From: Owenia fusiformis
Taxonomy: Eukaryota > Annelida > Polychaeta > Sabellida > Oweniidae
DNA: 64,000 bases
Direction: 5' to 3'
NCBI GenBank assembly: GCA_903813345.2
Contig: CAIIXF020000007.1
Span: 4,531,730-4,595,729 of the forward strand
Both the position numbers and the translations under genes were made by a program. The notes below the pieces were generated by a model, which saw only the letters and a list, made by a program, of their open reading frames with translations, did no database searches and was not told the DNA's origin. Below, piece after piece: positions 5,901 to 56,880 of this stretch (position 1 is the first letter of the stretch; each line of letters begins with the position of its first letter).

Positions 5901-8900
5901 TGTAACTTAAAAGTGTTATAGATTAGTATTATGAAGAAATTCATTATGACGTTCCAATAGGTATAGAAATGTCATGAAATTTGATATTTCATTCAAATAT
6001 CATCAAAAATGAGAAAACTTAAAATTGCAATACACTAACGAATGCAACTTCTGTCTTACATTGCTTTTCACACATTGGTCTACTGTTCTCTCCATAGCCC
6101 TCTGTAAAAGTCAGGAGAAGTTTATTATCACAGGCTGGTATCGAAAGATTTGTCCGCTGTGACGGAGCATGCTGTTTTTCATAAAAACACTAACAATGCT
6201 TCACGATTTATCGTTTAACTCATACGTTTCGTTATATCAAAGATAATTACTTACTCCATGCAATGGATATATAATTTGCGTGTAACCTTCACTTCTGTTT
6301 GAAGTCCAATAACGCTAGGAGTAAAATCTATTGAAAACGGCGCCAGAGTATCAAACTCTAAAATGTACCTTTTCTTTTTTAACTTTTTAATGCCATGATA
6401 TAGTGACACGATAATATTATCATATGTTTTCAGCATAACTCTGAATGTATTAATGATATATTAATGCATTGGTTTTTTTTTTTTTTTTTTTATAAAAAAT
6501 AATATCAATATTTTTTGTCCGCTGTGACGGAGCATTTTCACAGTTCACATTTGCAACTGCTCCGTCACAGCGGACAAAAAAATTAAACATTATTTTTTAT
6601 AAAATAATTTAAAAGACCAAATACATCAACATCTCATTTATACCTTCATAGATATGCTGAAACCATGTGTAGATATTATCGTGTCACTATATCGTGCCAC
6701 TAGAAAGTTAAACAAGAAATGGTACATTTTGAAGTATGATACTCCGGCGCCATTTTCAATAGCTTTTCTTCCCAGCGTAATTGGACTTCAAACAGAAGTG
6801 AAAGTTACCCGCAAATGATATATCCATTGCATGGAGTAAGTAATTTTGTATGGTATAACGAAAGATATGAGTTAAAAAATAAATTGTGAAGTATTCTTAG
6901 TGTTTTTATGAAAAATAGCATGCTCCGTCACAGCGGACAAATATTTCGATACCAGCCTGTGATTATATGATAATTTTCATTTGCTATTAAAGTTGTTGAA
7001 TATATTTTCAGTCTCAAATCTACCCCGATATTACTGGCAGCAAGCTCTGGAGCTTTAGCCTCATTGCGATGTCTTATTAACCTCGGAGCTAATGTCACCC
7101 GTCAAGATGATGCTGGGAGTAGCGTCATTCAACTTGCGGCATTGAGGTTTCATACAAACATACTAGAGTTCTTTATCAAGTGGAACAGAGAGGAGGTGAA
7201 AGTCTGGGACTCACTTGTAGGTCAGTGGATTGAGCCTTATTTAAACCAAGTTTATAACTGTATAACATAAAGATACATGCTGACTTTTTGTCCTAACTTC
7301 CCATGCAAGTAGTTAATAAGAGGGGGTTTTGTATATCAGAATGGGCTTATTGGCTCTCAGTAAATCCACTTACTCTATTTGAAATGGTGTAAAAAATTGA
7401 ATTCAGTGAGAGATACACATAGGGTAACATTCTTGGCAGGGGTGAGATGTCAACTCGAAGACTGCGGGTTGACCTGAATCAGATTTTTCAACCTGTTTCA
7501 CCCCTAATTCTCAATATTGGCAAATGTGAACTCTGACCCGTGTGGGGCAAAGCATTGACTATCATGTATTTGATAGTCCTATTATTTTACTCTCTGCATG
7601 AATATACCTTTTATAAAATACTCAAAATGAAAAAATATCATTAATATGGATTATAAACAGATAATGGCTTAAGGATAAAATGTTTTTTTGTCATTTAGGA
7701 ATGCTAAGGGATACCAGTTATCGTAAGAAAGACAGTGCAGTGAAATGTTTAGAGGTTATGTCGACATCAGATCCCGATCATTGGTCATCCATTCTCAAAG
7801 CAGGTGTGTAGCAAAATGAATGTCATGACTGGTTCCAGATGTGATCTATAGCACTTTTTATAAAAATCTTGTAAACAAATGATATTTTTTCTTTTAGATT
7901 GTGTAATAATTTTTTAAAGATACACTTTCAAATGGTATATGATAATATATTTTATACTATAATTTATTTCTTCATTGCCTATAAGCTTTTAGATGGTATA
8001 TTAAAAGTTGATTCAATACTCTTGCTTTCCAATGATATATTAGTGGTAATGTTATTTGTATGCTTTCAGATGGTATTCCAGCTCTTGTAGACCTCTTGCG
8101 TCTTGACAGTGAGGAAATCCAGTCAGTTGCAGCATCAGTACTATGTAATATTTCCGAACACGACCCTGTCAGGCGAGCTCTTGGAAAAGCTAATGCTGCT
8201 TCAATTCTCATACAACTTCTTGGATCTCCAGTTGATGATATCCAGTCACGAGCTGCAATTGTCCTGTCTGACCTAGCATGTGTGGATGATAACCAATCAG
8301 CTATTGCAGATCAAGGGGGTATCCCACCATTGGTGAATCTGCTAGATTCAGAACTTGAAGACGTTCTTGTGAATACAGTTAATGCGATACGTGTCATGTG
8401 TACGAATAATCATGCCAATCAAATTGCTGTAGCTGACAATAGTGGAATTGAGCCTCTTGTGGAGTTTCTAACGGTGAATTCAGGTAAGTTGTCAGAATTT
8501 TTAGTTCAGTTCTTATTTAATCCCACTTCTAGATAAGATAAGAGCATATATGGCGCGAAAGACACCCCTTGGAATGTACAGTGTATGGCATGAATTGAAT
8601 TCCGTCCTCATTAATTAGTATAACCTGAAATAATTTTCAATTTGCTGTAATTTCACAATCACTGAATGAACACTGAGTTGTATGGACTCTAAAATAAAAA
8701 CTAGTGTAATTTATTACATTCTGATACACTTATTGTAGATATACTGCAGGCAGCATCTGCAGCGGCTATTGCAGCAGTGGCTGAGGGCAATCGAGAAAAC
8801 CAGGATGTCATAATAGATGAAGGTGCAGCAAAGTAAGAAATTAGTGACATAGTGTTATAACCACTTTTTTGTTGGTGTTTGGCATTGGTAGTCAGCATTT

Positions 8901-11615
8901 GTGACAAGTTGTTACACTTTAGTAACCATTTGCTATAGCTTACTATTAGTTTTGAAGTTGAAGAGGTCATAAGGTTAAGGGCATAATGAAAAAATTTCAT
9001 CCAAATAAATACTTGAGCGTTGGTGAGTTAATATAATTTTGGATGATCTTTCCAATGGTATATCACATTACAGGTATCATAAAGTTTCAGGTGTAGCAGG
9101 GGGACAGAACTAATTTAACACCCTGTATACATTTAGTCTATATATTTCAGGCCTCTTGTTGACCTAATAAAAGGGAGAAATGTTACAGTGCAGGTGAAGG
9201 CTGCTAGTGCACTACTGAGTCTAGCTGAGAACAATCCAAGGAGTCAGAGAGCTTTTCTTGACCTGGATGGCCCAAAGGCTCTCAATAAACTTTTAAAGGT
9301 AGGGTGTCATTTCAGATGTTTCTGACTAAAGGAGGGGGAGTTGTTTGTCGAATGAATTGGGGGAGTTTTTTCATGCATTTCGCTTATGTGTTTCTTCCAA
9401 AAACATCAATACACTTTATACATTTTATTGACTATAAGATTGCACCATATTATCCCAAAAAATATTTCTCATTTTCAAGGAGAAACAACCCAATAAGGTG
9501 TGTATACATTAAAGATTTACTTTCCTGTTATCTCAAAATCTGCTTTGAACTGTACAAAAAAGTTTCAAATATGTTTATAAAAAATGATTTGCCCCCTCCT
9601 TGTCAATGTCAAGATCCACAATGGGGTGATTGGAGAAAGCTATATTACTTGTGAGACAACTCCTTAGAAAAGCATAATGTTTACATGTTGTCTATTCATG
9701 TGCCTCAATCATACACATACATGTAGTGTGAAATACATAATTTGATTATTTTGACATTAGGTAAAATTGCATAACACTGTTTCATGTTTTTTCCAGATTT
9801 GGTCTATGGAAGTGAAGGAGCAGGGTGCGTGTGCTCTGTGGGCCTTGGCAGGAGATACCCACCCTCAACAGAAAGATATAGCAGAGAGGATAGGCATCAC
9901 AACTCTTATTGAGATACTAATGCTCAAGTCAGAAAAGCTGCAGTATGTAGGTATGTATTTGACGTATATATACCCTTTTCTACAGTATGATTTGATGTCA
10001 GAAGGTTGTAACTAGCCTCTGGTCTGCAGGGTAAAAATGATGGTCATCAGCGTTGGTGTTTGTAACTTAGTGTTACAGTTTTTCAGTTTGTCATATTTCT
10101 GGGAAACTGAAAATTATATATGACATCAGAGTATATTCAAGCCATTGCCAAAGACCTCAGTCATTACATGTTCATATATTGTTCATTCATTATTAGGCCT
10201 ATACCATACAGGCCCATAGTTCAGTTTTGTTCAAAATTCTTACAATGCCCAATATTTCTATATATGCAGGTTGCCAAGCCATTGTTGCATTAGGGAAAGA
10301 GAACTTGGAGAACCAGACTAAGATTTGTGACTCTGGGGGTATACAACCTCTAGTGAGACTGCTCAGGGCTCAGAAAACATCAGAAACTGTACTGATGACG
10401 GTGGTGCGGACCCTTGGCATCATGTGTGTAGGTGAGTGATCGCAATGATAAAGCCTACCCGGCACTGCTGAGTCTATTTTCTATGGTTTGTAGAAATTTC
10501 TATTTGGGTTTGTTTGAGGTTAACAGAACCTTCAAACATTATCTTTCATAGCAGCTAAAAGGGTGTAAAAGTACATTTATAGTGAAATGAAGGAAACTAA
10601 TGCAATTAAAGGAGATTTGGCTTCAAGAGACAAAAGTCGAGAATGATCTTTTGGAAATGTATACTAGATACTCTAAACAGCAAAGAATGGCATATTTATT
10701 GTTTAGTCAACGTTTAATTTAATTGGGATGCTAGAAAATCAATTACTCCATTCCACTTTAGAGCAAAATGACATAGAATAGGCATGACAGATTAAAAAGT
10801 ACATATGCAGGGACTTGAATTAGACAACTTTTGCAATGTTCCAGGATTGGCCCATGGTAGTAACAAGCACACCCAGAACAAGATAGCGGAGGAAAAGGCA
10901 ATAAGTACATTTGTTCACCTACTTAACGAACCTCCTTCCCAGGAGATTCAGGTAGAGGTCGCTTGCACTCTTGCCTCTGTTGTGCTCAATAATGCTTCAA
11001 ACCAATCACGGTTAAGAGAAGAAACTGGGTTTACATACAAAAAGATGCTTCACTTGTTAACCTCAAAGAATGAGGTAAGTTTGAGTCCATTATTCCATTT
11101 AATTTAGCTCAAAGGATGAGTTATTTTTTTTCATTATTTCAGTTACCTCAAAAATGAGGTCATTGTTCTAGAGAACCTTAAAGAAACTTGTAAACATATT
11201 GATTAATGCTTATTAAGGAAATAAAAGCCCATGATGATGTCTGTCTGTCTTATGGGTTTCCGGACAACTCGGACCCAGGACAACTCGGATCCTGGACAAC
11301 TTGGACCCAAGACATCTCGGACCCAAGACAACTCGGACCACTTTTTGAAATGATGACTTTTATCATTACATTTGGTTTTAATTATTTTTTATGTTTATTT
11401 TGACATATATTATATATTGTGAATTCATATATTATGTTAATTTGATGATATTGTTTTATTTTATTTTAAATTAATGTTTTGATGAGAGTTAAGAAGTAAG
11501 AAATTATTGAAGCAAAAGACCCAAGACAACTTGGACCACTTTTTGAAGTGATGGTTTTTATGTCCCCACCACATAGTGTGGGGCCATATTGTTGGCCTAG
11601 GCACGTCTGTCTGTC

Positions 11616-11646
<31 letters not shown>

Positions 11647-14600
11647 CTGTCTGTCCGTCCGTACGTCCGGGAGTTTTCTCCAAAACCGCTGCAGATATCA
11701 CCTTCAAATTTTCAGGGATAATTTATGAGTGCATACAGATGTGGATGAAAAAAAATTAACTCGATACCTACTTCCTGTCGGCCATTTTGAAGTCAAATGC
11801 TAAAATCCTTGTCTGCAAACTTTAAGAAAAACGGCTTCACAGTTGCTTTTAAAACTTTAACATCTTGTTCAGCTCACTTCATTCTAGATCTGATTAGGTT
11901 TTGGACCTGTTAGCTCAGTCATGTCAGCCATTTTGAATGTTTTAAGAAAAGTTAGCGCACGATAATACTTTGTATCATATTGAATGGTGTTTTTCAGTTT
12001 TCATGCTTTAACTTTTTAGTAGCTTTATAAATAATTTCAGGTGTACTTTGTTGTAAAAGCTTATGTTATTGTTAACAGTAGGTATATGTGATAATTTTGT
12101 AAAAAGATTTCAGCAAAAACTCATAATCACTTTTTTATTGTCGGCCATTTTGGATTTTTCCGTCCTAAAATCTTGTCTGTAAAGTCTTGTCTACGCGTTT
12201 TCAGGTGAACCGTTTGGTAGATCAATTTCAAATTTTCAGGGATGATTCTTAGTATGAGAATCTAGATCTGATTAGTTTTTGGGCATTCTGGGTAAATGTC
12301 AAGGCAGCCATTTTGGATTTTCCGTCCTAAAATCTTGTCTGTAAAGTCTTGTCTACACATTTCCAGGTGAACTGTTTGGTACATCAATTTTAAATTTTCA
12401 GGGATGATTCTTAGTATGAAAATCTAGAACAGATTAGTTTTTGGCATTCTGGATAAATGTCAAGGTAGCCATTTTGGATTTTCTGTCCTCAAATCTTGTC
12501 TGTAAAGTCTTGTCTACGCATTTTCAGGTGAACCTTTTGTTAGATCAATTTCAAATTTTCAGGGATGATTCTCAATATGAAAATCTAGATCTGATAATTT
12601 TTACGGCATTCTGGATAAATGTCAAGGCAGCCATTTTGGATTTTCCGTCTTAAAATCTTGCCCGTAAAGTCTTGTCTACGCGTTTTTAGGTGAACCGTTT
12701 GGTAGATCAATTTCAAATTTTCAGGGATGATTCTTAGTATGAAAATCTAGAACTGATTAGTTTTTGGGCATTCTGGGTAAATGTCAAGGCAGCCATTTTG
12801 GATTTTCTGTCCTAAAATCTTGTCTGTAAAGTCTTGTCTACACATTTCCAGGTGAACTGTTTGGTACATCAATTTTAAATTTTCAGGGATGATTCTTAGT
12901 ATGAAAATCTAGAACAGATTAGTTTTTGGCATTCTGGATAAATGTCAAGGCAGCCATTTTGGATTTTCTGTCCTCAAATCTTGTCTGTAACGTCTTGTTT
13001 ACATGTTTTCTGGTTAACTGTGTGAGGGATCAATTTCAAATTTTCAGGGGTGGTTCTTAGTATGAAAATCTAGAACTGACTAATTTTTTGTCATTCTTGG
13101 TAAATTTTAAGGTGGCCATTTTGGATTCTCCGTCCTCAAATTGTGTCGGTAAAGTCTTGTCTACTCATTTTTAGGATAATCATTTGACAGGATTACCCAT
13201 AGGTGGGGACATATTGTACACATTTGTGTTCTTGTTATCATTGTATGGGATTCTAATTTTTTTGTTTTATGTTTTTATGACATATATTATATATTGTGAA
13301 TTCATATATTGTGTTACTTTGATGAAATTGTTTTAAATTAAACTAACTATAATCTCAAAAAGTTGCCCGAGTTGTCTTGGGTCTTCAGCTTCAATATTCT
13401 TCTACTTAATTTTCATCAAATAAGTCAAATTAAAACATTTTCATCAAATTAATACAAATTATGAAGTAATATAATATATGTATTAATTTTCATGAATGAA
13501 AAAAATATAACCACACATAATGATAAAAAATCATAATTCTAAAAAGTGGTCCGAGTTGTCTTGGGTCCGAGATGTCTTGGGTCCGAGTTGTCCAGGGTCC
13601 GAGTTGTCCTGGGTCCGAGTTGTCCAGTTACCGTCTTATGTTAGCATGTTTGCCTATTTGGTTGTTTTGTTGGCTAATATGGATTACAATAAAATATGTA
13701 TCCATTGATGTGTATTTTAGGAGATACGGTTGAAGGCAGGAATGGCTTTAGCTGTATTTGCATTCAACAATACCTCCCAGCAGTATGCTATCAGAGAGGC
13801 AGGAGGGGTGGAGTATAGGTGCTTTCAACACTTCCTAGAGTCTGAAAATGAGTACTACCAATGCCAGGCTGCTTTTCAGGTTTGTCCTTTCTTGCTGTCA
13901 TATTGTTAACCTTCAAGTTGTACTAAATATGGGCTTTCACACCCCCTCTGAAAATGAGTGGCTCTAAAATTTCCAAAGTAAAATTATCAAAATTATGTTG
14001 AATTATTGTCTTTTTGTCCTCCTTTTGTGGTGTTTCATTCAGTGACATTTATAATTATGAAGGAATGAGAAGGAATTTTTATCTTAATTCAGATACATGT
14101 ATCTCTATTTCCTTTTCAGTAAATGAAATTATGATTGCTAGGAAAACATTGGCATGGTTTTTGAAAAGACTTCTTCAAATATTTTACACTCTCTTTCCCA
14201 TTCAACCAGTTGAAGAAAGTAATCATGAATGATTAATTATTATTGAAGTACAATTTTGGGTGGCTAAGCATCTTGCTTCATCAAGCTTCGGACCTATCCT
14301 CACCTTGATTCATGACAAACTATTGGTTATACACTAAATAAACAAACCCCAGCTGATGCGCTGTCTTGAATATCATTATTAGAACGTAGTGATTGAGTGT
14401 GGGAACCGACGATGGTGGCTAAGTGCATACACCACAATTTGATATTGTTTTATTCCAGATTGTTGTCCTTGCCCGTGTGATTATTGACATGGACCAGGTT
14501 AACCTTTCTGCTAAAGGAGTCACTGTCATCGTGAACAACTTATCATCTGAGAAAGAGAAGGTGGTCCTTCTTGCAGGTGAGATTAACTCAGTTCAATGTA

Positions 14601-16255
14601 TTGAGAATCAAATAAAAAAGCTAAAATAAAGAATATTTCCATCAGATTTTGATCTAGATTAAAATGTATTGTTCAACTTCCTTGATAAAAATAATGTAAT
14701 TAAATGCACTGTTCTTCAAATAGTAAGATTTAAATGTAAATTGTATGTATTTCCAGCATCCTTGATCTCAAGTCTGGCCCATACACGTGCAGGCATTCCA
14801 GATGCCATGATAACATGCGGTGCCATAGATGCCCTGGTGGAAAAACTCAAGTCTGAAAACAGCCAAGTTCGGGCTGGTTGTGCCATAGCTTTAGGGTACC
14901 TCTCCTACAATAAAACAGCTGCTAGAATGTTGATGGTGTACTGTAGAAATACCCCTGGCATGTATGAAAGACTCATGGACAATGTAACTAAAGACGCTAA
15001 AATTGCCCCAGAGTTCATTGATGATTTCAAACGACAGCAAATCATTGGATTGCCATGTTTAAGGTGAGTTTATGCCCATATCTGTCCAAATAATGCATAT
15101 TAACTTATTACTGTAGTGATTAAATCATTATATGATACTTTACTTTGCTTTATTGTTTCTTTAGTTACATTTTTGTAAATTTTAATTCCAGTCTGGAAAA
15201 ACATGGAGGTCCTCCTGCAGTTCCCCCAAAGAAAGGTATGATAACATTTAGAGGATAAAATATGTTTTTCAGCTATTAATGGAATTAAGTTATTGGAGGA
15301 AATATAATTACTTTGAAATTGGCCCATTGGTAAAATCTTAAAAGTGGGAGAGGTATCGCAGAGATTTTTTCTTTGAGGGGAAGGTGGGACGCATTTTGAT
15401 GTACTCAACAGGGCCTTGAAGGTCACATATAAAATATATAATTTTTAAAAAAGCATAATAAAGTAAATAAATGATTATTAATTGATTACTTGTTAATTTT
15501 AACATGGTTTTAGAGAAAAATTAGAAAAAGGAGGTAAAAGATTATTGAAAAATTACCACCAGCACAAGTTCAATAAATCACATGTTTTACTTTATGGAAT
15601 TGATCATATATTACCAAATGTCACAAAATGAGCATTTAGCATTGCATGAAATACATATGAGCTTTTGATATAAAGTAGCACAATTTATTTCTGTTTTAAT
15701 GAATTTGAACATTCATGTTATGATCGCAAAAACACATCATGCATGGTCACAAAAAATGAAGGTAAACATACTAAAGGAATTTTCACTATTTTTGCTTCGC
15801 TTCAATCACAAATCTGTATTACAATTAAGTAATATATTGAACAAATGCTATAAAAAACAGAAAAATAAAACAATTGAAAATGTCTTATTTTGTAAATGTA
15901 TCAAAGACAATTTCTTATTGTACTCCTTTCAATTTCAGATGTTGGTAAGAGGCCGTATACCTCAGTCAGTCTACATAGTCGTAAAAGTCCACATCCCAAC
16001 TATAAAGCCACTAGTTTAGCTGATCGCGCTAAATCTGCCCCTGCCTTGGCACATCGGGGGAAATCTGCTGCTTCCACCAATTCTGGGCCCAAAATGTTAG
16101 AAGTCACAGACTTGATGGGCTTTGGCAAGAAGGAGAAAGGACTTGAGGTTAAGGCATTAGACAATGGGAAAATGCAAGTGAAAAGGAGGAATCAAGTTCA
16201 AATGGAGAAAGCGACAGCCTTTAAATCACAGTTGTCTGCTTGGAGCAAGAAATGA
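2917..16255 (+). CDS. ANKAR: Ankyrin and armadillo repeat-containing protein, 3' exons (5' end outside window)
   Basis: Exons: 2917-2955 (tentative), 5152-5214, 5703-5841, 7012-7220, 7699-7803, 8070-8483, 8739-8832, 9151-9298, 9797-9950, 10270-10431, 10845-11074, 13721-13879, 14459-14576, 14757-15063, 15192-15235, 15939-16255. All have AG/GT borders and every join keeps phase, giving 899 residues and a TGA at 16253. Ankyrin repeats come first (TPLHLASRCGALDAVSCLI; DTDGWAPIHYAAYYDQELVIKML; TPILLAASSGALASLRCLI). A run of armadillo repeats follows (for example GIPALVDLLRLDSEEIQSVAA, GIPPLVNLLDSELEDV, GIQPLVRLLRA). The tail is basic and Ser/Lys-rich. This ANK-then-ARM order is diagnostic for ANKAR, which is about 1,430 aa in humans, so roughly the first third lies upstream. 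Its function is poorly known; repeat proteins of this type are scaffolds. No frameshift or lost splice site was seen. Confidence 0.88.
4529..4711. mobile_element. Short hAT-like MITE with CAGGCCCGTAGCCA ends
   Basis: A 183-bp element has exact 14-bp terminal inverted repeats: CAGGCCCGTAGCCA at 4529-4542 and its complement at 4698-4711. Its interior has G-runs (4554-4560, 4677-4687). CAGG termini suggest a hAT-derived non-autonomous element. An 8-bp target duplication is not clear by eye. It lies in an ANKAR intron. Confidence 0.7.
6128..6962. mobile_element. 835-bp foldback element, PIF/Harbinger-like (TTA target duplication)
   Basis: The terminal inverted repeat TCACAGGCTGGTATCGAA begins at 6128 and its complement ends at 6962. 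Both ends are flanked by TTA (6125-6127 and 6963-6965), the target duplication of PIF/Harbinger elements. The arms are about 330 bp long and similar throughout. The motif TTGTCCGCTGTGACGGAGCA occurs near each end and again as an inverted pair in the centre (about 6515-6590), so the element has a second, inner hairpin. Each arm contains a matching ~60-codon stretch reading outward. No transposase is present. It lies in the ANKAR intron 5842-7011. Confidence 0.8.
11604..11668. repeat. CTGT/CCGT microsatellite
   Basis: An irregular run of the tetramers CTGT and CCGT occupies about 65 bases near the start of the inner element. Confidence 0.85.
12130..13180. repeat. 162-bp tandem repeat array, about 6.5 copies
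   Basis: The anchor word CCATTTTGGAT recurs near 12145, 12308, 12468, 12631, 12793, 12954 and 13115, a spacing of 160-163 bp. Each unit also carries AAATCTTGTCTGTAAAGTC and AAATTTTCAGGGATGATTC. The copies diverge by several percent, most at the two ends of the array. Confidence 0.85.
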
Positions 16256-21520: not shown

Positions 21521-23016
21521 TCACTCGATTACACATGCGGTGTGATAATATGAGCATGTTACACCCAGTGCCTTTCCCTTATCTTGTATAATATCCACAA
21601 CTCTTGGTATGTCAGATCTAAACAGATATCTATGCCCCTCAGCCTCAGGATGGCCGAGTCTCCCATCACTCCCACACCCCCATGTGAATACTCTCCCCTC
21701 TTTGCTCACTGCTGCACTGTGTATCCCACCAGCAGACACATGCATTATCTCATCCCCAGAAAAATTGTCACGTGGAATTTTCTGTGGTGTGTTATACGAG
21801 TCCTGGTTTCCTGTACCAAGCTTCCCTTTGTAACCATCACCCCATGTGTACACATCCCCTTGTAGAGATATGGCAAGTGTATGACCATGGTTCTCGCCCA
21901 CATTGCAGCTTAACTCCTTTATTCCACCTAAAGATGGCACTTTGGTTGGTACTGCAACATCTTTTAAAAAATTTGACCCTAGACCTAATTCTCCATCAAA
22001 GCCTTTTCCAAACATGTATACATCACCACAATCTGTTACAACTCCGCAATGCGCAAATCCAGCATTGCCGGAAACAACCTTAATATCTTTGAGTTCTTCA
22101 ACTTTTGTAGGGGTTATTTTATCACGAAAATCCCCATGACCTAGTACACCATGACGTCCTGAGCCCCAACTATAGAGTGATCCATTTTCAGTCCACACTA
22201 ATGTGAAATTGTTTCCGCATGATACACCAATCACTTTACCAGGGATATCTATTGGTATTGGTCCTGAGGTCAAGGTGGAATACTGAGTGGGTGCTCCTAG
22301 TATTTGTTTTTTGTTGTTTCCCCATCCCCATAGTTTCCCTTTATCAGTCACAGCACAACCATGCCATATCCCACAGGAAAACTGCAATGATTGAAGTGTA
22401 TAACATGTACATTTAATAGTATACATTAATCATATATGGACTACTACAATAATTACAACTTGACGTAACATATAGCTGTAGGGGAGGGGCCATTAGTCGT
22501 AATATTAAAAGATTCAAGCCAAATCTTCAAACATTTTTATTTTTGTGCCATATACCCTCTCTATGGTCATCTCATACGTGTGACTCTAATAGCTATAAGA
22601 AGGATGGCATATTGTCTTGCTTTTAAAATATCAATTGGATATACACATGTAGGTATAAATATTAGATCATACTGTCTGTTATAATACATGTACCAGTATA
22701 TTTGCCTTCAGTCATGAAATACATTTCTGGATAACATACATACCTTTACAACTATTCCATCTACAGGAACACGAGTCAGAGTTGCAACATCATTCTCTTG
22801 CCCTGTGCCCAGCCTCCCATATTTGCCACACCCTGTGCTATAAAGCTCCCCCTTTGATGTCAACACACAGGTGTACAAAGCCCCACATTCTACTTCAACA
22901 ATTTTGTGTTTTTTATTTCCACATTTCCAAATCATTTCTTGAGGAAGGATGCACTTTTCTTGTTTTCCATTTCCAAGTTGTCCTGATTTGCCTAATCCCC
23001 ATGCAAATGCTGTCAT
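21521..23016 (-). CDS. RCC1-repeat (seven-bladed beta-propeller) protein
   Basis: Two exons read right to left: 23016-22744 (91 codons) and 22381-21521 (286 codons plus stop). They join in phase across a GT/AG intron to give 377 residues. Seven RCC1 repeats are visible by their blade signatures: FAWGLGKSGQLGNG, LYSTGCGKYGRLGTG, LWGWGNNKKQILG, LYSWGSGRHGVLGHG, VYMFGKGFDGELGLG, VYTWGDGYKGKLGTG and VFTWGCGSDGRLG. Seven repeats make a complete propeller, so the protein is essentially all propeller with no added domain. RCC1 itself is a Ran exchange factor, but most family members have other roles, and nothing here identifies the partner. The ATG at 23016 is the first Met in frame; the frame stays open upstream to at least 23070, so a further 5' exon is possible. 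Confidence 0.85.
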
Positions 23017-26900: not shown

Positions 26901-29900
26901 GAAATATGATGCCTTGAAAAATGAACAGAGAATGACTAAGCAACATCTACACCAGGTAACATGACAGTGTAGTCTTGTATTAATCCCTTGTTAGCATGCC
27001 TCATATACCTCACCTCATCTAGAGAAGACAAAAAAACTAATGTATTGATAGAGTATATTTTTGTCTCTTGAAAGCCTCGACTTCACATTCCACAGCTACA
27101 ATGCAGGTGGTATGACCCTGTCAAATGAGCCCTTACTGATACAACTAGGCATTGTGCAATATACTTTTGTTTTGAATATTTTGTATTATTTTTTATTAGA
27201 AATTAGGCTTTAAATCTGACATTCGGCCAATGACCCATGAAACTTTTGTTTGTTAATCTATTTATTGACCTGAGCAATATGTGACTTCATAGTGCTGGCT
27301 GTAGAAGCGGGCCAAAATTGACATTTCAGCCCGCCAATGTTCCCCGGGAACTGAGATATCATTCAGTGCGTATACTTTTCCTTCAGTGGCAGTCCGTTCT
27401 TGCTATTTCCGCCCTGGGCATAAGGTGGTAATAATAGTAACCTCATTTCAGGGGCCACATAGGGAAATATTAATAGGTTATGATATAGGTTATTGGTATA
27501 TTATTTCACAAAACCTCACGTTTACTTTTCTATTTAACATATTATTTTTCCAAAATGTATCTCCTTCTGAATTCCTTGTTTACATATTGTAATTCATAAT
27601 TCCTTCTCTGTAATCCTAATATCTTCATTTTTCCTCATATTTCCTTCTGTGTCTAGGTGAAGCTGCAAATGGCAGTATTGTTACGTATGTCCAGCGGGAC
27701 TGATGCAGACCGTTCTAACAGTGAAAGATTACGCCAGCAGCTATCGCAAGCTAGGGCTGAGGTGGAGGCCTTAACTCACAAGGTCAACTGTCTCGAGAAG
27801 AGAGAGGTTAGGGATCATAGTACTTTTATCAGCTTGACTAAACTTTCATTAAATCAGACTGAAAAGTTTTGTATGCTCAATGTCAATATATTGTCTTGAA
27901 GAGAAACCAATTCAATTCAATTTTTATTTATTTCATAATTCTTATATAATATACACTATAAAAACAAGCCGCTAGACACCCTAGTGGGTATATGTTGCGG
28001 TTTAACAGAAATTATTAAAATGACATCTAGACTACATATAAAAGAAAACACTTATATTATTTTACATGTAGGTATATAAAAATGGTATTACAATTTATCT
28101 AAGGATGTACAATGTAAAAATGTTACAAAAAATCAGGTACCAGTATAAAATCAACAATACAGTATGATATTGGTATTATACATTATCGATAGATGAGTAG
28201 TTTTTTATATGAAGATTTGAAAATATTTAGAGTGGAGCATTTTTTAATATCATGTGGTAGAGCATTCCAAAGATTAGGACCTAGATAGCGAAGGGAAAGT
28301 TTAGAGCATTTAGGGATATGAAAATAATGCAATTGTCTTGTGTAATGATGATGAATATTAATGTTGATATCAAACAAGTCTTGAAATAGATTTTTTGGAA
28401 GACTGGGGTGCTTATTAAAGATTTTGCACATGAACTGACCAGTACAATATCTGTTGACATCAAAAATATTTAATATTTTAAGATCTTTAAATAGGGGAGT
28501 GGAGTGAGAAAGTCTATCCTTATTTAAAGCTAGCCTTAAGAATTGTTTCTGCAGTTTATGTAGACGATCATAAAATGATATGAATGTGTTACCCCAGATT
28601 ATGTTGCAATAATTTAATTGAGAGTGTATCAATGAGTAGTAAATTGTTTTGAAACTGTCTATTTGAAGTAGATGTTTAATGCGATAAAGAGAACCAATGA
28701 CGCGAGAAATCTTTGTTTCAACAGATTTTATGTGCTCTTTAAATTTCAGGTTTTTATCAATAATAATTCCAAGAAAGTCAATTTTTTCCCGAAAATTTAT
28801 GTTCTCATTGCATATTTTAAGATTCAAATTTGTTTGATTTTTTTGGGGTCCAAATAGAATAGCATTAGTTTTGCCAATATTAAGTGAAAGTTTGTTTGCT
28901 TTTATCCAGTCATCTATTGAATTCAAGTTTGCATTTGTTCTAGTCGTAAGTTCATTTAAATCATAATCACTATCAAGAAGATTGGTGTCATCAGCAAACA
29001 TAATAAATTTTAGATTAGGGGCAACGAAAGGCAGATCATTTATGTAAAGAATAAATAATAGTGGTCCAAGTACCGAGCCCTGCGGAACACCACAATTTAG
29101 AGATGATTGTTTAGATTCATAATTGTGAATGGTGACATATTGTTTGCGGTCTTTTAAATAACTTTGAAACCAGGACTTAGCTATTCCTCTGATGCCATAA
29201 TATTCAAGTTTTTGTACCAAAATGTCATGATTAATTGTGTCAAAGGCCTTGGAAAAATCTAATGTTATGCCAATGCTCGTTTCCCCCAAATCAGTTGATT
29301 TTCGAATTTGTTCAATGAAATATAAAATGGCCATGTAGGTAGAATTGAATTTCTGAAATCCAAATTGATAAGTAAAAATAATTTCAAAACGTTCTAAAAA
29401 ACCAGTGAGTTTGGCGTGCATGAGCTTTTCTAACAATTTAGAAAATACCGATAAAATTAAAATTGTAAGGATTTGTAGTGACACCTTTTTTAAATACAGG
29501 TGTTACTTTGGCCAATTTGAGGGCGTCTGGGAAAATACCAGATTTAAAAGATAAGTTAAATATATACAAGAGCGGATCAATTAAAAACTGTCTTGCAGAC
29601 TTAATAAGTGATGGTAGAATCCCATCAGGTCCAGGCGAGGAAGATTTTAGAAGACACATTTCTAATTCAAGCTCAGTTTTTGAGGTCTTTTTGAGATAAA
29701 TAGATGATTGAACTTTTTGAGCTCTTGCTAGGTATTCATTAAAGCATTTTTTGGATTTTGGAATCTCCTTGGCTAGATTTTTACCAATATTGGTAAAAAA
29801 ATTATTAAATCCATTAGAAATGATTTCATGATCTGTTGTTTCCTTTCCATTTATAGTGAATTTAGATGGCAATGCAGCTCTTTTGTTTTTTCCAAGTAGT

Positions 29901-32007
29901 TCATTAATGATAGACCAAGACTTAATGTTGCCACTTACTTCGGCAAACTTATTTTGATAATATGTACGTTTTGAGTATTTAATTATGTGCTTAAGTTTAT
30001 GGTTGAAGGACTTGTAAGCTTTACCTGTTTTGCAACAGGGATTTTTCAAATATTTGGTATATAGCTTATTTTTAGTTTTGGCAGAAGTTAAGATGCCAGA
30101 GGTCAACCAGGGTCTATTAGGGTCATGATTAACCTTGATAAATTTGGATTTGACTGGAAATGAAGAATCATATTGTTCCATTAACAAGTTAATGAAGATA
30201 TTAAATGCTATGTTTACATCTTGACTTTTATAGCAAGGGGTCCAGTCGACACCATTAAGTTAAAGTGGTAATAAATTGATATCAAAGTAAAAACAATGAA
30301 ATACTTTCAAAATCCTCTGGGTTCCAATCAGGCTTTATACATAGAAATCCCCCCTTAAAATTTTTTTAGTCACCCTTTACATGAATTAAAAATTGGTTAT
30401 TTTATTTCAGAGAACGGAAGCAGATTACATGGCTGATTTTCACAATGCATTTGGTGGCAATAATGAGAAAGACAAGAACCATGTGCAGTATCTCAGGGCT
30501 TTGCTGAAGCGAAAAGAGTAAGATGATTTGCTGGTTTGATCAGTTTTTGTGTCACCACCAGAAGTGGTGAAATATTGTTATAGTATTTAACTTTTTTGTG
30601 GGGGTTGGTGTTTGATAGTGGGCATTCGGCGGCTGTCACAAATTGCATGTGGTGACATTGTTAATGCCTTCCTTGTGTTTTATTGAGGCTTAAATGTGTT
30701 GAGCTAAATGGGATTGGATGTTTCCCCCTAGAGGAGATCAAAATTACCATTCAGTTGGTCTCAGCTATTGGTGCCTCTTATGTCTTCAGGTATGTGTCAT
30801 CTTTTGGATTTACACATGTGAAACAATTTGTTATTTTCAGTGAAGAAATAGAGAAGATAGAATGCGAGTTGAGAACCAAGCGTATGGTGTGCCTTGCTGA
30901 AAGTGACAATGTTTTGATGCTGCAGAGAAAGTTATTTGATGCTGAGAAAAGTGTTGAGAAACTATCAGGTCATAATATGAAACTAGGGTTGAAGTTAGAG
31001 GAGTATAAGCTCAAGTATGAGCCAGGTAAGGATCTGCATTAACACATAGGTATTTTTCATTATGCAAAGTTACTTTTTTCAAGGTAGAGAGGGAAGGGAA
31101 GGGGTAAATGTAAATTTCAACATTGATATCAATTTGTCATGTTAATGCCTTTTTTCTCCATTTTTCCTTGTCCATTCCCTTTTGTTTTAACAAATTGACT
31201 GTTTTTACACTGAACAAAAACATTTTCCCTGGAATACTGGAGCATGAGAATGAGATACACAGCGGGAGATATATGTATGTCCCGCTCCTTCAAGATATTA
31301 ATTCTATATCCCTCTGTTATGTACCTGAAACCTCACTCGTCATAGGATAATTCAATAAATTAGATGATTTCATTGTGTTCTGGTTCTCAAAATGTGTTTG
31401 GATACAGATATTGAATACTTAGCTCAATGTCTAAAAACTATTGTTGTTTGTTGTTCTTTCAGAATCTGTGAAAGAAAGAGAACTGCATGAGAAGGGTAAT
31501 TTAACAGATAGATGGATTGAGAAGATTCCAGTCTCAAAGAAAATGAATGATGAGAATAATGAAGGAGAAACTATTAACAAAAACAATGATGATAACATCA
31601 AAGACCCTAACCAAGTTGATGATAATACTGATAAAAATACTGATGAAAGTGGTGTTGAACAAATTAATACAGAAAATGATCCTAACGGTGGAAGCAGTAA
31701 TACGAAAACCAGCTCAAAGAGACATATGGGACCAGTGGACCAACCTATGACATTTAAATCAATCAAAACGAAAAAGGTTACAATGAGTGACAATGTCAGC
31801 ATAATGCCAGGTGATGACACAGGTGCTGACGACTCTTTGGAAATTAGTAAAGACTTACTTGAAAAGGCAGCAAAGTTAGGGGAGAGGAATCGTGAAACTG
31901 ACGAAGGAAAGAGTACGAGACGAGTGAGGGGTAAACAACAACATCGGAAAGTCATCCGAGAAAAAGACATGGAGACAGACATTGGTGATGGGTGCAAAAC
32001 ACAATAG
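23969..32007 (+). CDS. SPDL1: Spindly: dynein/dynactin adaptor and kinetochore coiled-coil protein
   Basis: Eleven coding exons: 23969-24077, 24526-24605, 25031-25204, 25628-25825, 26009-26137, 26381-26479, 26851-26955, 27657-27806, 30411-30517, 30841-31025, 31463-32007. They join in phase to 626 residues (human Spindly is about 605). The start ATG is in a good context (CTACCATGG). The protein is a long coiled coil. Known functional motifs are present: the CC1 box AAEIG (residues 33-37), which contacts dynein light intermediate chain; the Spindly motif GNSLFSE (257-263), which contacts dynactin pointed-end proteins, followed by the conserved VEDRRVVAEKQLISMRVKY; and LKLKYEP-type sequence before a polar, disordered tail. 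The protein ends CKTQ, a CaaX box; human Spindly is farnesylated at its C-terminal CaaX to reach kinetochores. Intron 8 holds an antisense LINE. Confidence 0.93.
27905..30260 (-). mobile_element. 5'-truncated LINE (jockey/CR1-like) with one frameshift, antisense in SPDL1 intron 8
   Basis: Reading right to left, 30258-29438 encodes the start of the reverse transcriptase region (RAALPSKFTINGKETTDHEI; LKSSSPGPDGILPSLIK; PLLYIFNLSFKSGIFPDALK; VTPVFKKG). 29484-28183 continues with the palm and thumb (LDFSKAFDTINHDIL; GVPQGSVLGPLLFILYINDL; the catalytic FADDTNLL) and C-terminal sequence ending FKSSYKKLLIYR. The two parts are in different frames, overlapping near 29438-29484, so one indel separates them. 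The endonuclease domain is missing, as expected of 5' truncation. The 3' tail, read on the minus strand near 27910-27935, is AT-rich with AATTG repeats. Confidence 0.9.
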
Positions 32008-50330: not shown

Positions 50331-50994
50331 CATCTGAAGATTCAATAAAAGACAAGTGTATAGTCTGTTTATAAAGTATTCCCTTTGTCCAGATAAACTC
50401 ATATCCAAGTTTAGTAATGCTTATAATGTGATATCATAATATGATGTCATTATTTAATGCACAATGCATTGTTTTGAAAATGAATAGTGCATTTTTACTG
50501 GTGAGTCACATCTACTGTCATCAGTCCTTATGTCTGATACAAAGTTTTGTTGTATGGTCATTGTCATGTAACCATTTAAATGTCAAAAGTTTTCCATGAA
50601 GATATGCAGGAAATTGAAGGTGGTTTGATTTACATTCATGGCACATATCATTAAACGATTTTCCGATTACCAAAGTTTCAGATTTACTTTCCGTATCTTC
50701 ACTTGTGTAATAGAGATCCTGGAAAAGCATATTGTAAGGAAAATTCTCATCCAGCAGCTGGCACCACCACTGAGTATCTATTGTATACTTAACATGCTGT
50801 AAGAGCCAGACAAACAAAACAATACTAAAAGGGCTCATTCCTGGGTGATATATCTCCCTACCAGGGTAGTTCTCATCAAATACACTATCACAATTCGACA
50901 TTGTAATGTTGAATGTATCATGATCGTACCCTGGTTGATCTTCCTTCTGTCCACACATATCCCTGATAACAGCCTCAAAACATTCACCCACATT

Positions 50995-51180
50995 GGAGCT
51001 CTTACACCTCACTTGGTGTTTAAGTATTAATGTCTTCAGTGAGTATGGTGATACATATACTCTTATTCTGACATTTCCAATATGATTGGAGCTCTTACAC
51101 CTCACTTGATGTTTAAGTACTAATGTCTTCAGTGAGTAAGGTGATACACATATTCTTATCCTGACTTTACCAGTATGATT
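50995..51180 (-). repeat. In-frame 93-bp tandem duplication inside the cGLR C-terminal region
   Basis: GGAGCTCTTACACCTCACTT occurs at 50995 and again 93 bases later at 51088. The encoded repeat reads VRIRICVSPYSLKTLVLKHQ then VRIRVYVSPYSLKTLILKHQ. The 31-codon unit covers the helix that in other Mab-21 proteins contains the SYHLKTLFL-type motif, which normally occurs once. Confidence 0.9.
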
Positions 51181-52004
51181 GATTAATTTCATACAAATAT
51201 ACAATAGTTTGTGTTCCCTTGTTAGTATATTGTCAGTTGGTGGTTTCACAATGGATTCCATCCAGTGACAAAATTCAACAGAACATCTGCATCCATCCTG
51301 GTACCTATCCTCTACATCCCCACCTGCTGCTACCATAACAGTTCTTGGTGAGCTATCAGATCTCTCTATGCAGAAACACATGTCAATATCAGTTGTTGTG
51401 ATTGGTGTTCCCAAACGTAGCCATATACTTGGCCCATGACAGTCTTCACTCATACTACACTCACCTACTAGGTATTCTTCTGGCGGCAAGGAGCTTATAA
51501 AGTCAGCATATCCTTTAAATTTAGATCCAAGCCTAGATTCCAGTGAGTGTTTGATTGCGTGTTGTATTTTCTTGATAAGTTTACATGATAATATATGTCT
51601 ACCTTTGGTATATTTCTTCACCATATCATCAGCAAGTCCCTGTTTTAAGGGGCCAGATCTGACCGTTATTATACCATAGCCCTTATCTTTAGCCCCATAC
51701 TTCTCACAATCTTCCCTCATATTCTCCACCTGAACATCTTCATCATCTGATAGAGCTAAGGGGATCAAGAAATCACTCTCATCTGCTGCTACAACTTTGG
51801 TTTTCTCATAGTAGTCCCCGATCTGATTTCCAAAAGGGCTCTAGAAAAGGGGTTTTGTTGTCCGGTACTTTCCCACATAAAATGATTGTACCGTTTGAAA
51901 GAACAGACTTCCCTCTTAAAGAAAACACCTCTTCTATTGATGTAAACAGGGGCAAAAGGCACCAAAACGGGGTTAGACAAGGTGGCATTCTGAAGTCTCA
52001 CTTT

Positions 52005-52500
52005 CTTGTCATCACGATTCCAGGTAAACCATTAGATGGATTTACTTCAAATTTTCACACATGTTACATGGTAAGAAGTTCTAGAGCTGATTAACTTTGC
52101 GGTGGCCATCTTGCATTCTGGCGGCCATCTTGGAATTTTTTTCAGATAAATATTGTCATCGCGATTCCACAAAAACCACTTAACAGATGTACTTCAAATG
52201 TTCACACATGTAACATGGTAAAAAGTCCTAGACCTCATTATTTTTTCGGTGGCCATCTTGCATTCTGGCAGCCATCTTGGAAGTTTAAAGATAAATCTTG
52301 TCATCACGATTTCAGGAAAACCAAACGGATTTACTTCAAATTTTCACACATATTACAAGAACTTCTAGAGCTAATTAACCTTTCGGTGGCCATCTTGCAT
52401 TCTGGCGGCCATCTTGGAAGTTTTTTGATAAATCTTGTCATTGTGATTCCAGGAAAACCACTTTACTGATTTTCTTGAAACTTTTACACATGTTACAAGG
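52005..52500 (+). repeat. Left-arm tandem array, about 4 copies of a ~145-bp unit
   Basis: Each unit carries GGTGGCCATCTTGCATTCTG, GGCCATCTTGGAA, and TTCACACATGTTACATGGTA or close variants. It is the inverted counterpart of the array at 55320-56190. Confidence 0.85.
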
Positions 52501-53439
52501 AAGGTTACATGCTACCTTTTATATTGATATAAACAGGGGCAAAAGGCAGTAAAGTGGGGTTACACAAGGTGGTATTCTAAGGAGAATGTTATCTATTTTT
52601 CTGTATTTTAAACCACATAGTTTGACATAAATGCATATTTGGTGTATGATATCATGTTTTATATTGATAGAAACATGGGCAAGAGGCGCTACAATGAGGT
52701 AACACATGGTGATATTCCAAAATACATATCTTTACTCTGCTTCTGTACTTTATACCACTTAAATGCATTTTGTGTATGACATCGATTGATTTTTAGAATA
52801 AATAACTACATTTCATCAAAAAGAAAAAAGATTATTGAAAACGTCAAACATTTCTTTGAAATCCATTATTGCACAGTGATTTTTGAGAGCGAAATGTATG
52901 CTAAATTGGCCTTGATCTGAATATAGAACGGAATTAAAGCTCTTTTAAACGAAAATGTAAATGTGTGGAAAACCTTTCACTGTGCATCATGTCAACGAAA
53001 TGTTCTTCGTGCAGTTGAATTATCTTCTGGACAGGTGATCACACAGAAGGAGAGACCTGCGTATCATATCCTCACTAAACATAAACAAAAATGACAAATG
53101 AGAAAGGAAAAAAGTGTAAAGCAACCTAGTGGGAAAAGCAAACTGTAAAGTGTAGAACTGGCAAACAAAAAAATCAAACCTGAATATCCCAAGACAATAA
53201 TCTAATATGGGAATAAACAGCATCCACACCGTTCAATGACCAATTCCTCATCAACGACCACAACTCCGAGGGACATTCCATTCATACTGAAGTCATTAAA
53301 ATACATGTTGAAGAAAAATTGAAAATAATGATATCCAATACTCAGAAGATCAAAAATAGTTGTAGATACTATAGTACTCATAAAAGCTGCAGATCACGTT
53401 TCTTCATCGGGAAAGCAAGCTGTCTCTTAGTCAGATATT

Positions 53440-53520
53440 AACTAACGAGCTGGTTCAGAGCACCAGCTTGTCAAACTATGGGCTCTGTATCCACAATGTT
53501 GCGAGTTCGAGACACATGTG
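53440..53520 (+). repeat. tRNA-like sequence, probable SINE head
   Basis: GAGCTGGTTCAGAGCACC resembles a pol III A box and TTGCGAGTTCGAGACAC (about 53499-53515) a B box, at roughly the spacing expected. No acceptor stem pairs, so it is not a functional tRNA. Confidence 0.4.
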
Positions 53521-53992
53521 CTCTTTGCGTTTAATAATCAACAAAAATCACTTAAACCTGCACTAAAACTGTGTGTCAGATCGATATAAGTATAGGGTTT
53601 GGAAACTAATTGTACCAACAAAAAGAACTTAAAAAACACTGCTACAATATCAACATAAGCTTTCAATAGTAGTGACGATGCAGAAACATGCAAAATGTCA
53701 CCACACCTTGTTAAGTATACAGTACACATTAACTACTGAACAGTGTCAAGATAAACGTTCGAAGCTATTACAATATGTCACCCGATCACTAGTGGTGGTG
53801 ACATAAAAATAATGTATAGAAAAATCTACTGAACCAAAATAAACTTTGTGATAGAAGAACTGATTGTTTACTCTAAGTTTTCAACTAAATATATTTCTAA
53901 TAAGCAATGTTTTATCGAAAAGAAAAAATAATTTCATGTTATATAAAATCAAATAAATTAATTATATTTTTTTTCGTTGTGTTAGTTACACC

Positions 53993-54116
53993 AGTAATAA
54001 TAAACCTGTTTATAAAGTGGTGTTAACTAGACTATATAATTTAACAGTCATAAAAGTAATAATAAACCTGTTTATAAAGTGGTCTTAACAAGACTATAGA
54101 ATTTAACAGTCATAAA
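53993..54116. repeat. 62-bp direct tandem duplication
   Basis: AGTAATAATAAACCTGTTTA opens both copies (53993 and 54055). They differ at only a few positions. Confidence 0.85.
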
Positions 54117-54399
54117 ACCTAAAAAAATATACCAGGAAGGGACCATTGTGAATGTAAATGTATAAAGCACGGATGCCATAGGAAACGGAACAAAAGTTAT
54201 AACAGAACCTAGCATGGAGAAAGTGTAACTGGTAAATTGTAATAGAAATAATATAGATCATGATCTAACATGACATAGTATGCCTTACAACTCATCCTCC
54301 CTAACATTATTAAAGACTACTAAAGTATATTATAGTGATCCACTCGATTATGCTGGTTACCTAAACGGTTTGTTTCAGTAACAAAATGTGGGAACATCG

Positions 54400-54760
54400 A
54401 AGGTATGATTTTTCCTTTCACACTTTGTAGGCAGAATTCCAACAACATTTTTCCTCACAAACGTGTATCAGTATCATATGTTTAAGAAAATGTGCATATT
54501 TGCAAACAAATAGTTCAGAAGACAACATAATCGTACATTTAATTCCTCACTTAAGTTACTTAAACGGTATTTCGAAAAAACAGTTCAGATCTGCACTTTT
54601 AACCCAAAACCTTTATGTCACTTAAGTAAGGAATTAAATCGACAATTCTGTCGTCTTCTGAGCTATTTTTCGCAAACATGTACATTTTCTAAGACATATG
54701 ATACTGATTCACATTTGTGAGAAAAAACGTCGAGAGGATTCTGCCTACAACGCATGAAAT
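54400..54760. repeat. Imperfect palindrome inside the transposon
   Basis: The left arm (54400-54560) and right arm (54615-54760) are inverted relatives. Examples are AGGAATTAAAT with ATTTAATTCCT, and CAAACATGTACATTTTCT with the complement of AGAAAATGTGCATATTTG. Confidence 0.7.
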
Positions 54761-54826
54761 AAGGAATAAGGACAAATCGTACCTGTAATCGAGCGGATCA
54801 CCAGTGTATATACAGGGTGAGATAAT

Positions 54827-55310
54827 TCATATTATGGCATCAACTTTGACAAGTTGGTTCATCCAGTTGTCAGGTAAGAGATTTTCAGGTAATTCATTTT
54901 CTTCCTGATCTTCAACGTTTGGTGTAATGGTGTCATCAACTGGTTCAAATTCATTATCGCTCTCATCAACATCATCATGCTGATGGGTTGGACAGTTCTC
55001 ACACACACCTTTGCGGCACTTACATGAACTTCCACAAATGAGATCCTGTTTCTTACAACTACATCTCATTGAGTCACACGCTCCTTTACACTACAAGCAA
55101 CAAGCTCCATTATTTCTTGTGGGGCAGGACCGTTTTCCATCCACTTAATTTGTAGTTTATTCCCTTTGAATGTCCAACCATGTAATGTGGGGGATTGATA
55201 ATCAATCATTGATTTGCCTGCGTTTCGCCAAATATAGGCCTGATAGTTGGCTCTATTTATATGGAGAATGAGAGCATCCTTTGTTGGTGGTAAATGCTTT
55301 GACTGTATTT
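54827..55310 (-). pseudogene. Cys-rich (CXC-like) C-terminal gene fragment, frameshifted
   Basis: Minus-strand translation gives LPPTKDALILHINRANYQAY, a Trp-rich stretch (GKSMIDYQSPTLHGWTFKG) and MENGPAPQEIMELVACS. A one-base shift follows, then CKGACDSMRCSCKKQDLICG and SSCKCRKGVCENCPTH. Large families of uncharacterised invertebrate proteins end with this same order (LPPT.DAL..H..RANYQ, then a CXC-type cysteine cluster), often in repeated or transposon-associated genes. The shift lies in the string GCTTGTAGTGTAAAGG (about 55085-55100), where one base is missing. The N-terminal part of the gene is absent, so this is a captured or decayed remnant. Confidence 0.65.
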
Positions 55311-55319
55311 TATATTTAT

Positions 55320-56190
55320 CTACAAACTTCCAAGATGGCCGCCAGAATGCAAGATGGCTATCGGAAAGTTAATCAGCTCTATAACTTATTACCATGTAAC
55401 ATGTGTGAAAATTTGAAGTAAAACTGTTACATGGTTTTCATGGAATCGTGATGACAAGATTTATCTAAAAACTTCCAAGATGGCCGACGGAATGCAACAT
55501 GGCCACTGAAAAGTTAGTCAGCTCTAGAACTTCATACCATGTAACATGTGTGAAAATTCGAAGTAAAACTGTGAAGTGTTTTTTCTGGAATCGTGATTAC
55601 AAGATTTATCTATAAACCTTCCAAAATGGCCGCCAGAATGCAAGATGGCCACTGAAAAGTTAATCAGCTCTAGAACTTCATACCATGTAACATGTGTGAA
55701 AATTTGAAGTTAATCTGTTAGGTTGTTTTCCTGGAATCACGATGACAAGATTTATCCCAAAATTTCCAAGATGGCCGCCAGAATCCAAGATGGCTGCCGA
55801 AAAGTTATTCTACTCTATATTTTCTTACCATGTAACATGTGTGGAAATTTGAAGTAAATCCGTTTGGATTTACTGAAATCGTGATGACAAGATTTATCTT
55901 AAAACTTCCAAGATGGCTGCCAGAATGCAAGATGGCCACCGAAAAAATAATGAGGTCTAGGACTTTTTACCATGTAACATGTGTGAACATTTGAAGTACA
56001 TCTGTTTTGTGGTTTTTGTGGAATCGTGATGACAATATTTATCTGAAAAAAATTCCAAGATGGCCGCCAGAATGCAAGATGGCCGCCGCAAAGTTAATCA
56101 GCTCTAGAACTTCTGACCATGTAACATGTGTGAAAACTTGAAGTAAATCCGTCTGATGGTTTACCTGGAATCATGATGACAAGAAAGTGA
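55320..56190 (-). repeat. Right-arm tandem array, about 6 copies of a ~145-bp unit
   Basis: AAGATGGCCGCC-type words recur near 55331, 55475, 55621, 55766, 55907 and 56055 (spacing 141-148). Each unit also has CCATGTAACATGTGTGAAAA and TGGAATCGTGATGACAAGAT. Confidence 0.88.
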
Positions 56191-56734
56191 AACTTCAGAA
56201 TGCCACCTTGTCTAACCCCGTTTTGGTGCCTTTTGCCCCTGTTTACATCAATAGAAGAGGTGTTTTCTTTAAGAGGGAAGTCTGTTCTTTCAAACGGTAC
56301 AATCATTTTATGTGGGAAAGTACCGGACAACAAAACTTTTTTTCAGAGGGTCCAGATCAGGGACTATAGTGACTTCCACGTCTGAAAAGTTTTTTAGATT
56401 TGAATGCAGGTTCTTTTGCCCCTACATCAGCACAGAGGTCCTGTACAAATCCCTCTACATAATCAGTGTGTTCTTCCAACTGTTCCTCTGTGTATTTCCC
56501 AGAAGTATGCACTTCAGTCTTAACAGATATAAATTCAACAAAGTCTTTGAGGTTATCATCCATCCTGCTAAATTTAAATGTTGAATCCAGATATGCTGGG
56601 CCTAGTCCTAATATCATTTCCTTTAAGCCATATAGATATTCAGATATTCTGAATATAATGTTACCCATGTTGATTAAGCCTCATGTATCACACATGTCAC
56701 ATATGTATCGTTAAGTTCATGTATTTTTGTGAGT

Positions 56735-56880
56735 TGTATTTCCCAGAACTTTGCCCTTCAGTCTTAGCAATGCAATAATTTCAACAATGCCTGTCAGGTT
56801 ATCACCAGTTTTGTTTGTAGATGTTGAATCGGACACTGGAAGTAGTCCTGTAATTGTCTTAGTAAATTCTAGATACAGAT
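56735..56880 (-). pseudogene. Decayed duplicate of the cGLR N-terminal coding region
   Basis: This stretch aligns with 56510-56625 in the same direction. Shared words on the plus strand are TATTTCCCAGAA, TTCAGTCTTA, TTCAACA, AGGTTATCA and TGTTGAATC, with indels between them. The frame is destroyed. It indicates that a second copy of the gene once stood directly upstream of the first. Confidence 0.6.

Follow-up and report, generated by a model that had tools for sequence, protein, structure and literature searches.

Two published sources frame the gene described here. As excerpted from PMC10732462, the Mab-21 domain (PF03281) is used to define the superfamily of cGAS-like receptors (cGLRs). 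The motif criteria printed in the excerpted text of Li et al. 2023 (preprint PMC9980059) comprise an h[QT]GS activation loop, a [DE]h[DE]h motif 8–20 residues after the GS, and a third acid 50–90 residues further on; the same text reports species-specific cGLR radiations of more than 200 in some bivalves. A locust study is reported to describe the recognition by cGLRs of derivatives of a Gypsy element, a different link between cGLRs and transposons (PMC13299631), and presence–absence variation of genes is reported in a mussel (PMC7653742). Among the papers listed on cGLR radiations, annelid expansions, transposon-cut immune genes with cGAS, and cGLRs with pseudogenes and transposable elements, judged by titles and abstract openings only, none dealt with the loss of a cGLR gene to a transposon. 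Here, we analyze a 64,000-nucleotide stretch of the annelid Owenia fusiformis (contig CAIIXF020000007.1, positions 4,531,730 to 4,595,729; ‘the window’), in which a putative Mab-21/cGAS-like nucleotidyltransferase gene is cut in two. We give a probability of about 0.87 to the reading that a transposon insertion cut a gene of a large Mab-21/cGAS-like family and inactivated this allele.

A Gene Cut by a DNA Transposon

A single DNA transposon splits one minus-strand gene into two halves, at 50521–51808 and 56367–56668. The parts, in window coordinates, are:

56367..56668, minus strand: 5′ half of the gene, ATG through Tyr101; the Gly-Ser motif is encoded by codons 98–99 (56372–56377)
51812..56366, no strand: non-autonomous terminal-inverted-repeat (TIR) DNA transposon, 4555 bp, termini TAGTCCC/GGGACTA, identified from full-length copies and its duplication
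51809..51811, no strand: target-site duplication TAG, left copy
56367..56369, no strand: target-site duplication TAG, right copy
50521..51808, minus strand: 3′ half of the gene, from Glu102 to the stop, including the C-terminal part (E111/D113 at 51772–51780; D243 at 51382–51384)

A script rejoined the minus strand (56668 to 50521) without the insert and one copy of the duplicate; in the result, the ATG at 56668 opens 529 sense codons followed by a stop, with no internal stop. The junction lies between Y101 and E102 (GSHY/EKTKV), two residues past Gly98-Ser99. An earlier reading of the letters alone, hereafter the first-pass annotation, had proposed this join of 529 continuous codons, this junction, and a reading frame otherwise undamaged on both sides, and the rejoined sequence agrees on each point. 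The annotation had also staked the reading on a continuous alignment with a family member. The nearest relative, L002 (C7:3978506-3979810), which has no insert, lies on the same contig 0.6 Mb away and is open for 482 amino acids (aa); it aligns with the rejoined gene over the junction without a gap, and the 27 nt from the Ser codon across the junction are identical in the two genes.

The best account of the locus is that a non-autonomous cut-and-paste element landed in the early portion of the nucleotidyltransferase domain and duplicated 3 bp. Continued into the element, the frame of the 5′ half reads Ser, Pro, and then a stop, so that translation of the interrupted allele would end two codons inside the element, giving a 103-aa fragment that keeps the Gly-Ser motif and has no catalytic acids. 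Because this predicted fragment is without those acids, synthesis of a nucleotide second messenger by the window gene would be lost.

The Inserted Element

A comparison of the element with the genome returned at least 260 matching stretches (the best 35 of 5453 first-look candidates were scored). Since three other copies match from the first base to the last, over all 4553 positions of the element as first delimited and at 96% identity, chance is excluded as the source of the element call. Fifteen fetched copies were compared together with the window copy (n = 16). Once the ends are moved out by one base, a 3-bp target-site duplication flanks the element in 16/16 copies, and the window element, whose repeat begins TAGTCCC, measures 4555 bp, in place of the 4553 bp given by the first-pass annotation. 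Its 5-bp duplication ATAGT fits the window copy only (1/16) and gives way to TAG, which fits all 16; the rejoined gene sequence is identical under either reading. Terminal inverted repeats and a duplication of fixed length in every copy identify a TIR DNA transposon, whose internal features are:

51839..52500, plus strand: left long inverted-repeat arm, a series of ~145-bp subrepeats, with lower similarity over the outermost ~27 bp
55683..56348, minus strand: right long inverted-repeat arm; element positions 27–688 match 3871–4536 inverted, at 93%
54830..55368, minus strand: remnant, frameshifted here, of a cysteine-rich open reading frame (ORF) that stays open, at 180 aa, in 4/15 other fetched copies

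No frame longer than 124 aa between stops occurs in the window copy, and no transposase domain was recognized. The 180-aa ORF taken from another copy gave only a weak CXC match in Pfam (E 2.5). This internal cysteine-rich ORF resembles the C-terminal ends of two ORFs of 1573 and 1602 aa elsewhere in the genome (L049 and L050), neither of which has a significant Pfam match. The excerpted Repbase paper (PMC4455052) held no usable description by which to name a superfamily.

Assignment to the Mab-21/cGAS-like Family

The gene is assigned to the Mab-21/cGAS-like nucleotidyltransferase family through its relatives. The rejoined protein contains G98-S99, E111, D113, and D243. The family profile was built from an alignment of 18 rows, 10 of which hold the N-terminal matched stretch only. 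PF03281 matches 11 of these 18 members (E up to 1, best 4.7e-11); in the genome, it has 32 matches over the cut-off, 18 of which overlap places found with the rejoined protein, by hand count. Among solved chains, this profile picks up cGAS (E 3e-4) and cGAS-like receptor 1 (E 2.7e-3), with the unnamed chain 4jlx as its best match (E 1.2e-4). The matches to cGAS fall around the GS and E-x-D motifs; toward the C-terminus, scores against solved chains are close to zero. When compared by hhalign with seven loci from this genome, each matched by the Mab-21 models PF03281 and PF20266 alike, the family aligned over 145 columns up to about Gly235, with a probability of 94% (E 1.1e-7).

Several observations weigh against the assignment. 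Neither this protein nor either half has a Pfam match at E 10, and against PDB sequences, it gives weak matches only (best E 0.067). The Mab-21 C-terminal model, PF20266, matches the genome 12 times, and by hand comparison no such match coincides with a place that the rejoined protein found. A structure model of the 3′ half, built without an alignment, failed, with a predicted local distance difference test (pLDDT) score of 35. The residue preceding the Gly-Ser is Arg97, versus the printed Gln/Thr. In E111-S-D113-F, which sits 11 residues after S99, the residue between the two acids is Ser, which is not hydrophobic (Cys/Tyr/Met/Leu in relatives). D113 and D243 are 129 residues apart, and the spacing is 121–147 in 18/18 members, outside the printed 50–90.

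Some of these results are shared by relatives. Paralogue L002 likewise has no Pfam match, PF03281 included, and PF20266 is absent among the 18 aligned rows, only eight of which extend into the C-terminal part. G98-S99 is invariant in 18/18 members, and D243 is likely the third catalytic acid, judging by conservation. The family departs from one printed cGLR criterion, yet its homology places it in the same superfamily. The comparison with Mab-21/cGLR families proposed at the first pass was thus answered in part: the family profile finds cGAS and cGLR1, but the rejoined protein by itself has no Pfam match. In the same way, the family placement behind the proposed loss of a cGAS-like immune sensor stands, but the claim of an active sensor exceeds the evidence, with a spacing outside the cGLR range. 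The genome contains 14 stretches matching the STING ligand-binding domain, which makes a receiver of cyclic dinucleotides plausible.

Age of the Insertion

The element copies form a star-like tree, with a terminal branch of 0.0112 substitutions per site for the window copy. Random substitutions in the coding sequence would create a stop in 3.5% of cases. The ratio of insertions and deletions (indels) to substitutions was taken from 11 well-aligned copies of the 16, leaving out five badly aligned ones with more gaps (L026, L029, L032, L033, and L034), and the share of frameshifting indels was assumed to be 0.8. The chance that the gene acquired no stop or frameshift is then 0.14 at a divergence of 0.0112, or 0.09 with the window copy's own indels, and drops to 0.05 at 0.017. 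Given a chance of 0.09–0.14 at 0.0112, the undamaged frame fits a young insertion without any selection after it. The insertion is young, at less than about 1.7% neutral divergence; the short terminal branch and the undamaged frame both agree with the recent event of the first-pass annotation.

Youth and an otherwise undamaged frame are also what a polymorphic insertion would show, i.e., the sequenced haplotype would be filled, other chromosomes would carry the intact gene, and there would be no loss at the population level. Among the matches listed by the genome search, there is no second, empty copy of the gene, in an assembly that may hold one haplotype only. We place polymorphism somewhat below even odds; it refines the reading of a transposon-cut allele rather than opposing it. 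If the insertion segregates, carriers of the empty and of the filled allele could be compared directly to learn whether losing one member of a redundant family has any effect.

Gene Family and Constraint before the Insertion

Searched against the genome, the rejoined protein gave at least 140 matching stretches, including both window halves (the best 82 of 160 candidates were scored). Grouped within 5 kb, the matches listed form about 74 clusters, at least two of which fuse two neighboring genes. Among the same matches, 65 clusters include an open frame no shorter than 400 aa, and one of these is the 3′ half of the window gene; three of the 65 also show in-frame stops (C5:17839808, C9:28782798, and C212:20342). 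The intact paralogues for which the first-pass annotation proposed a search are present, and since 64 other clusters have such an open frame, losing the window gene need not mean that the function itself is lost.

The closest of them, L002, is 78% identical to the window protein over residues 1–312 and 63% over 353–466, and the tree pairs the two genes with a support of 100/100. Their synonymous divergence (dS) is 0.43, and the ratio of nonsynonymous to synonymous divergence (dN/dS) is 0.48 over 473 codons, rising to 0.83 in codons 466–529. The window gene keeps all 32 paralogue-invariant columns (columns with a letter in at least 15 paralogues), and relative-rate tests with five outgroups gave no acceleration (P 0.33 to 1.0). 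From these sequence comparisons, the window gene looked to be under constraint before the insertion. Two further features of the locus are:

50992..51177, minus strand: in-frame tandem duplication, 2 × 93 nt (31 aa), 90% identical, found in this gene only among the 18 aligned
56735..56849, minus strand: decayed duplicate of N-terminal coding sequence from the same gene, just upstream of the ATG

The duplication may have impaired the protein before the element arrived, and the gene could already have been a pseudogene, or an unusual member, by then. Its absence from the other 17 aligned members and the raised dN/dS of codons 466–529 speak for this. The two units differ by a dS of 0.205, and because of this divergence, the duplication is judged to predate the insertion. 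At about 0.10 per unit, however, the whole frame stayed open, although neutral decay predicts 36 disabling changes at a divergence (K) of 0.205, so about 18 at 0.10; the 32 invariant positions were all kept as well. We therefore consider prior decay improbable, and favor a gene under apparent constraint up to the insertion.

Alternative Fates of the Two Halves

Expression of the 3′ half alone, as a shorter protein devoid of the Gly-Ser motif, could be imagined from its open frame, which extends a few codons into the element. Such a product would be missing the first 101 residues, the Gly-Ser loop among them, and we hold this outcome to be very unlikely.

Less probable still is that the gene goes on working because the element is removed by splicing, like an intron. 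An in-frame acceptor, rich in pyrimidines, is present 29 nt short of the element end, and the family does include one paralogue, L044, with an apparent spliceosomal intron. No open-frame donor in the 5′ half, however, matches more than three of seven consensus positions. The three closest to the junction have phase 1 against phase 0 for the acceptor, and use of the phase-0 donors farther upstream would delete the Gly-Ser motif. Poor donors and a phase mismatch with the acceptor led us to set splicing aside as unlikely.

An insertion created by assembly error, for which we found no supporting point, has hardly any standing, as full-length copies occur elsewhere and the 15 other fetched copies have the same ends and 3-bp duplication.

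Other Interrupted Paralogues and Family Turnover

Duplication, transposable element (TE) insertion, and loss shape immune gene families. Two other members of the present family are cut by TEs. In L043 (C10:28373900-28379000; nearest L009), the inserted element has inverted repeats, measures 3179 bp, and is flanked by a 6-bp duplication, TGAAAT; in L045 (C10:30613100-30615000), it is 227 bp long, lies at about 627–853 of the locus, and has a 4-bp duplication, GGCT. In both genes, the flanks join in frame; each element also occurs at other places in the genome and is unrelated to the window element. The TE-cut members thus number 3 of 74 clusters, a count that by itself gives no ground to claim an excess over other families; the check covered clusters with matches in different frames. 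A further candidate, L044 (C12:7192000-7194000), was rejected as a TE hit: its phase-0 interruption at about 579–851 has in-frame GT-AG borders, its 273 nt match only themselves in the genome search, and it is a likely spliceosomal intron, most other members of the family being single open frames. The partial paralogues L051, L052, L053, and L006 have no second half within the fetched DNA and are not counted as TE-cut.

The three TE-cut paralogues fit ordinary birth-and-death turnover of the family, and the insertion in the window would be one of several TE hits in a family turning over by duplication and loss. As an event, this is an unexceptional case of a young TE insertion inactivating one member of a large gene family. 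It offers a roughly dated loss of a cGAS-like gene in an animal with a large expanded set. The intact sister gene, 0.6 Mb from it, is a natural comparison, and two more paralogues are TE-cut as well. Given the extended motif spacing, censuses of such enzymes that rely on a fixed spacing may fall short. A bolder proposal, which we regard as possible but doubtful, is that the roughly 74 clusters represent a so far uncounted radiation of cGAS-like enzymes, mostly of one open frame, with 30–60 extra core residues before the third acid. Such a radiation would be missed by a 50–90 filter, and would be losing members to one independent transposon insertion after another, so that individuals would differ in their receptor sets.

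Elsewhere in the window, ORFs resembling a tyrosine-recombinase element and a reverse-transcriptase element were seen by eye at 161–2239 and 28183–30187, and exons resembling armadillo-repeat and RCC1-repeat proteins at 8060–15067 and 21521–22426.

Comparison with Known Systems

The gene can be likened to Mab-21 proteins (PF03281, PF20266) through the 11 of 18 family members that match PF03281 and the profile–profile match to loci carrying both models, whereas the rejoined window protein matches neither model. With the cGLRs, as described in the excerpted preprint (PMC9980059), the family shares a nucleotidyltransferase with a G-S loop and three acids, a mostly single-domain build, and large species-specific radiations; it differs in the spacing between the second and third acids, 121–147 here versus 50–90, and the likeness on our side is one of sequence. 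The element shares with TIR DNA transposons that make a 3-bp duplication its inverted repeats, the fixed 3-bp duplication, a multicopy state, and non-autonomy, but it differs in carrying no recognized transposase domain and is not placed in a superfamily. The closest parallel lies with the transposon-inactivated members of expanded immune families: a young insertion in one of many paralogues with a frame otherwise intact, from which the window gene differs in nothing essential.

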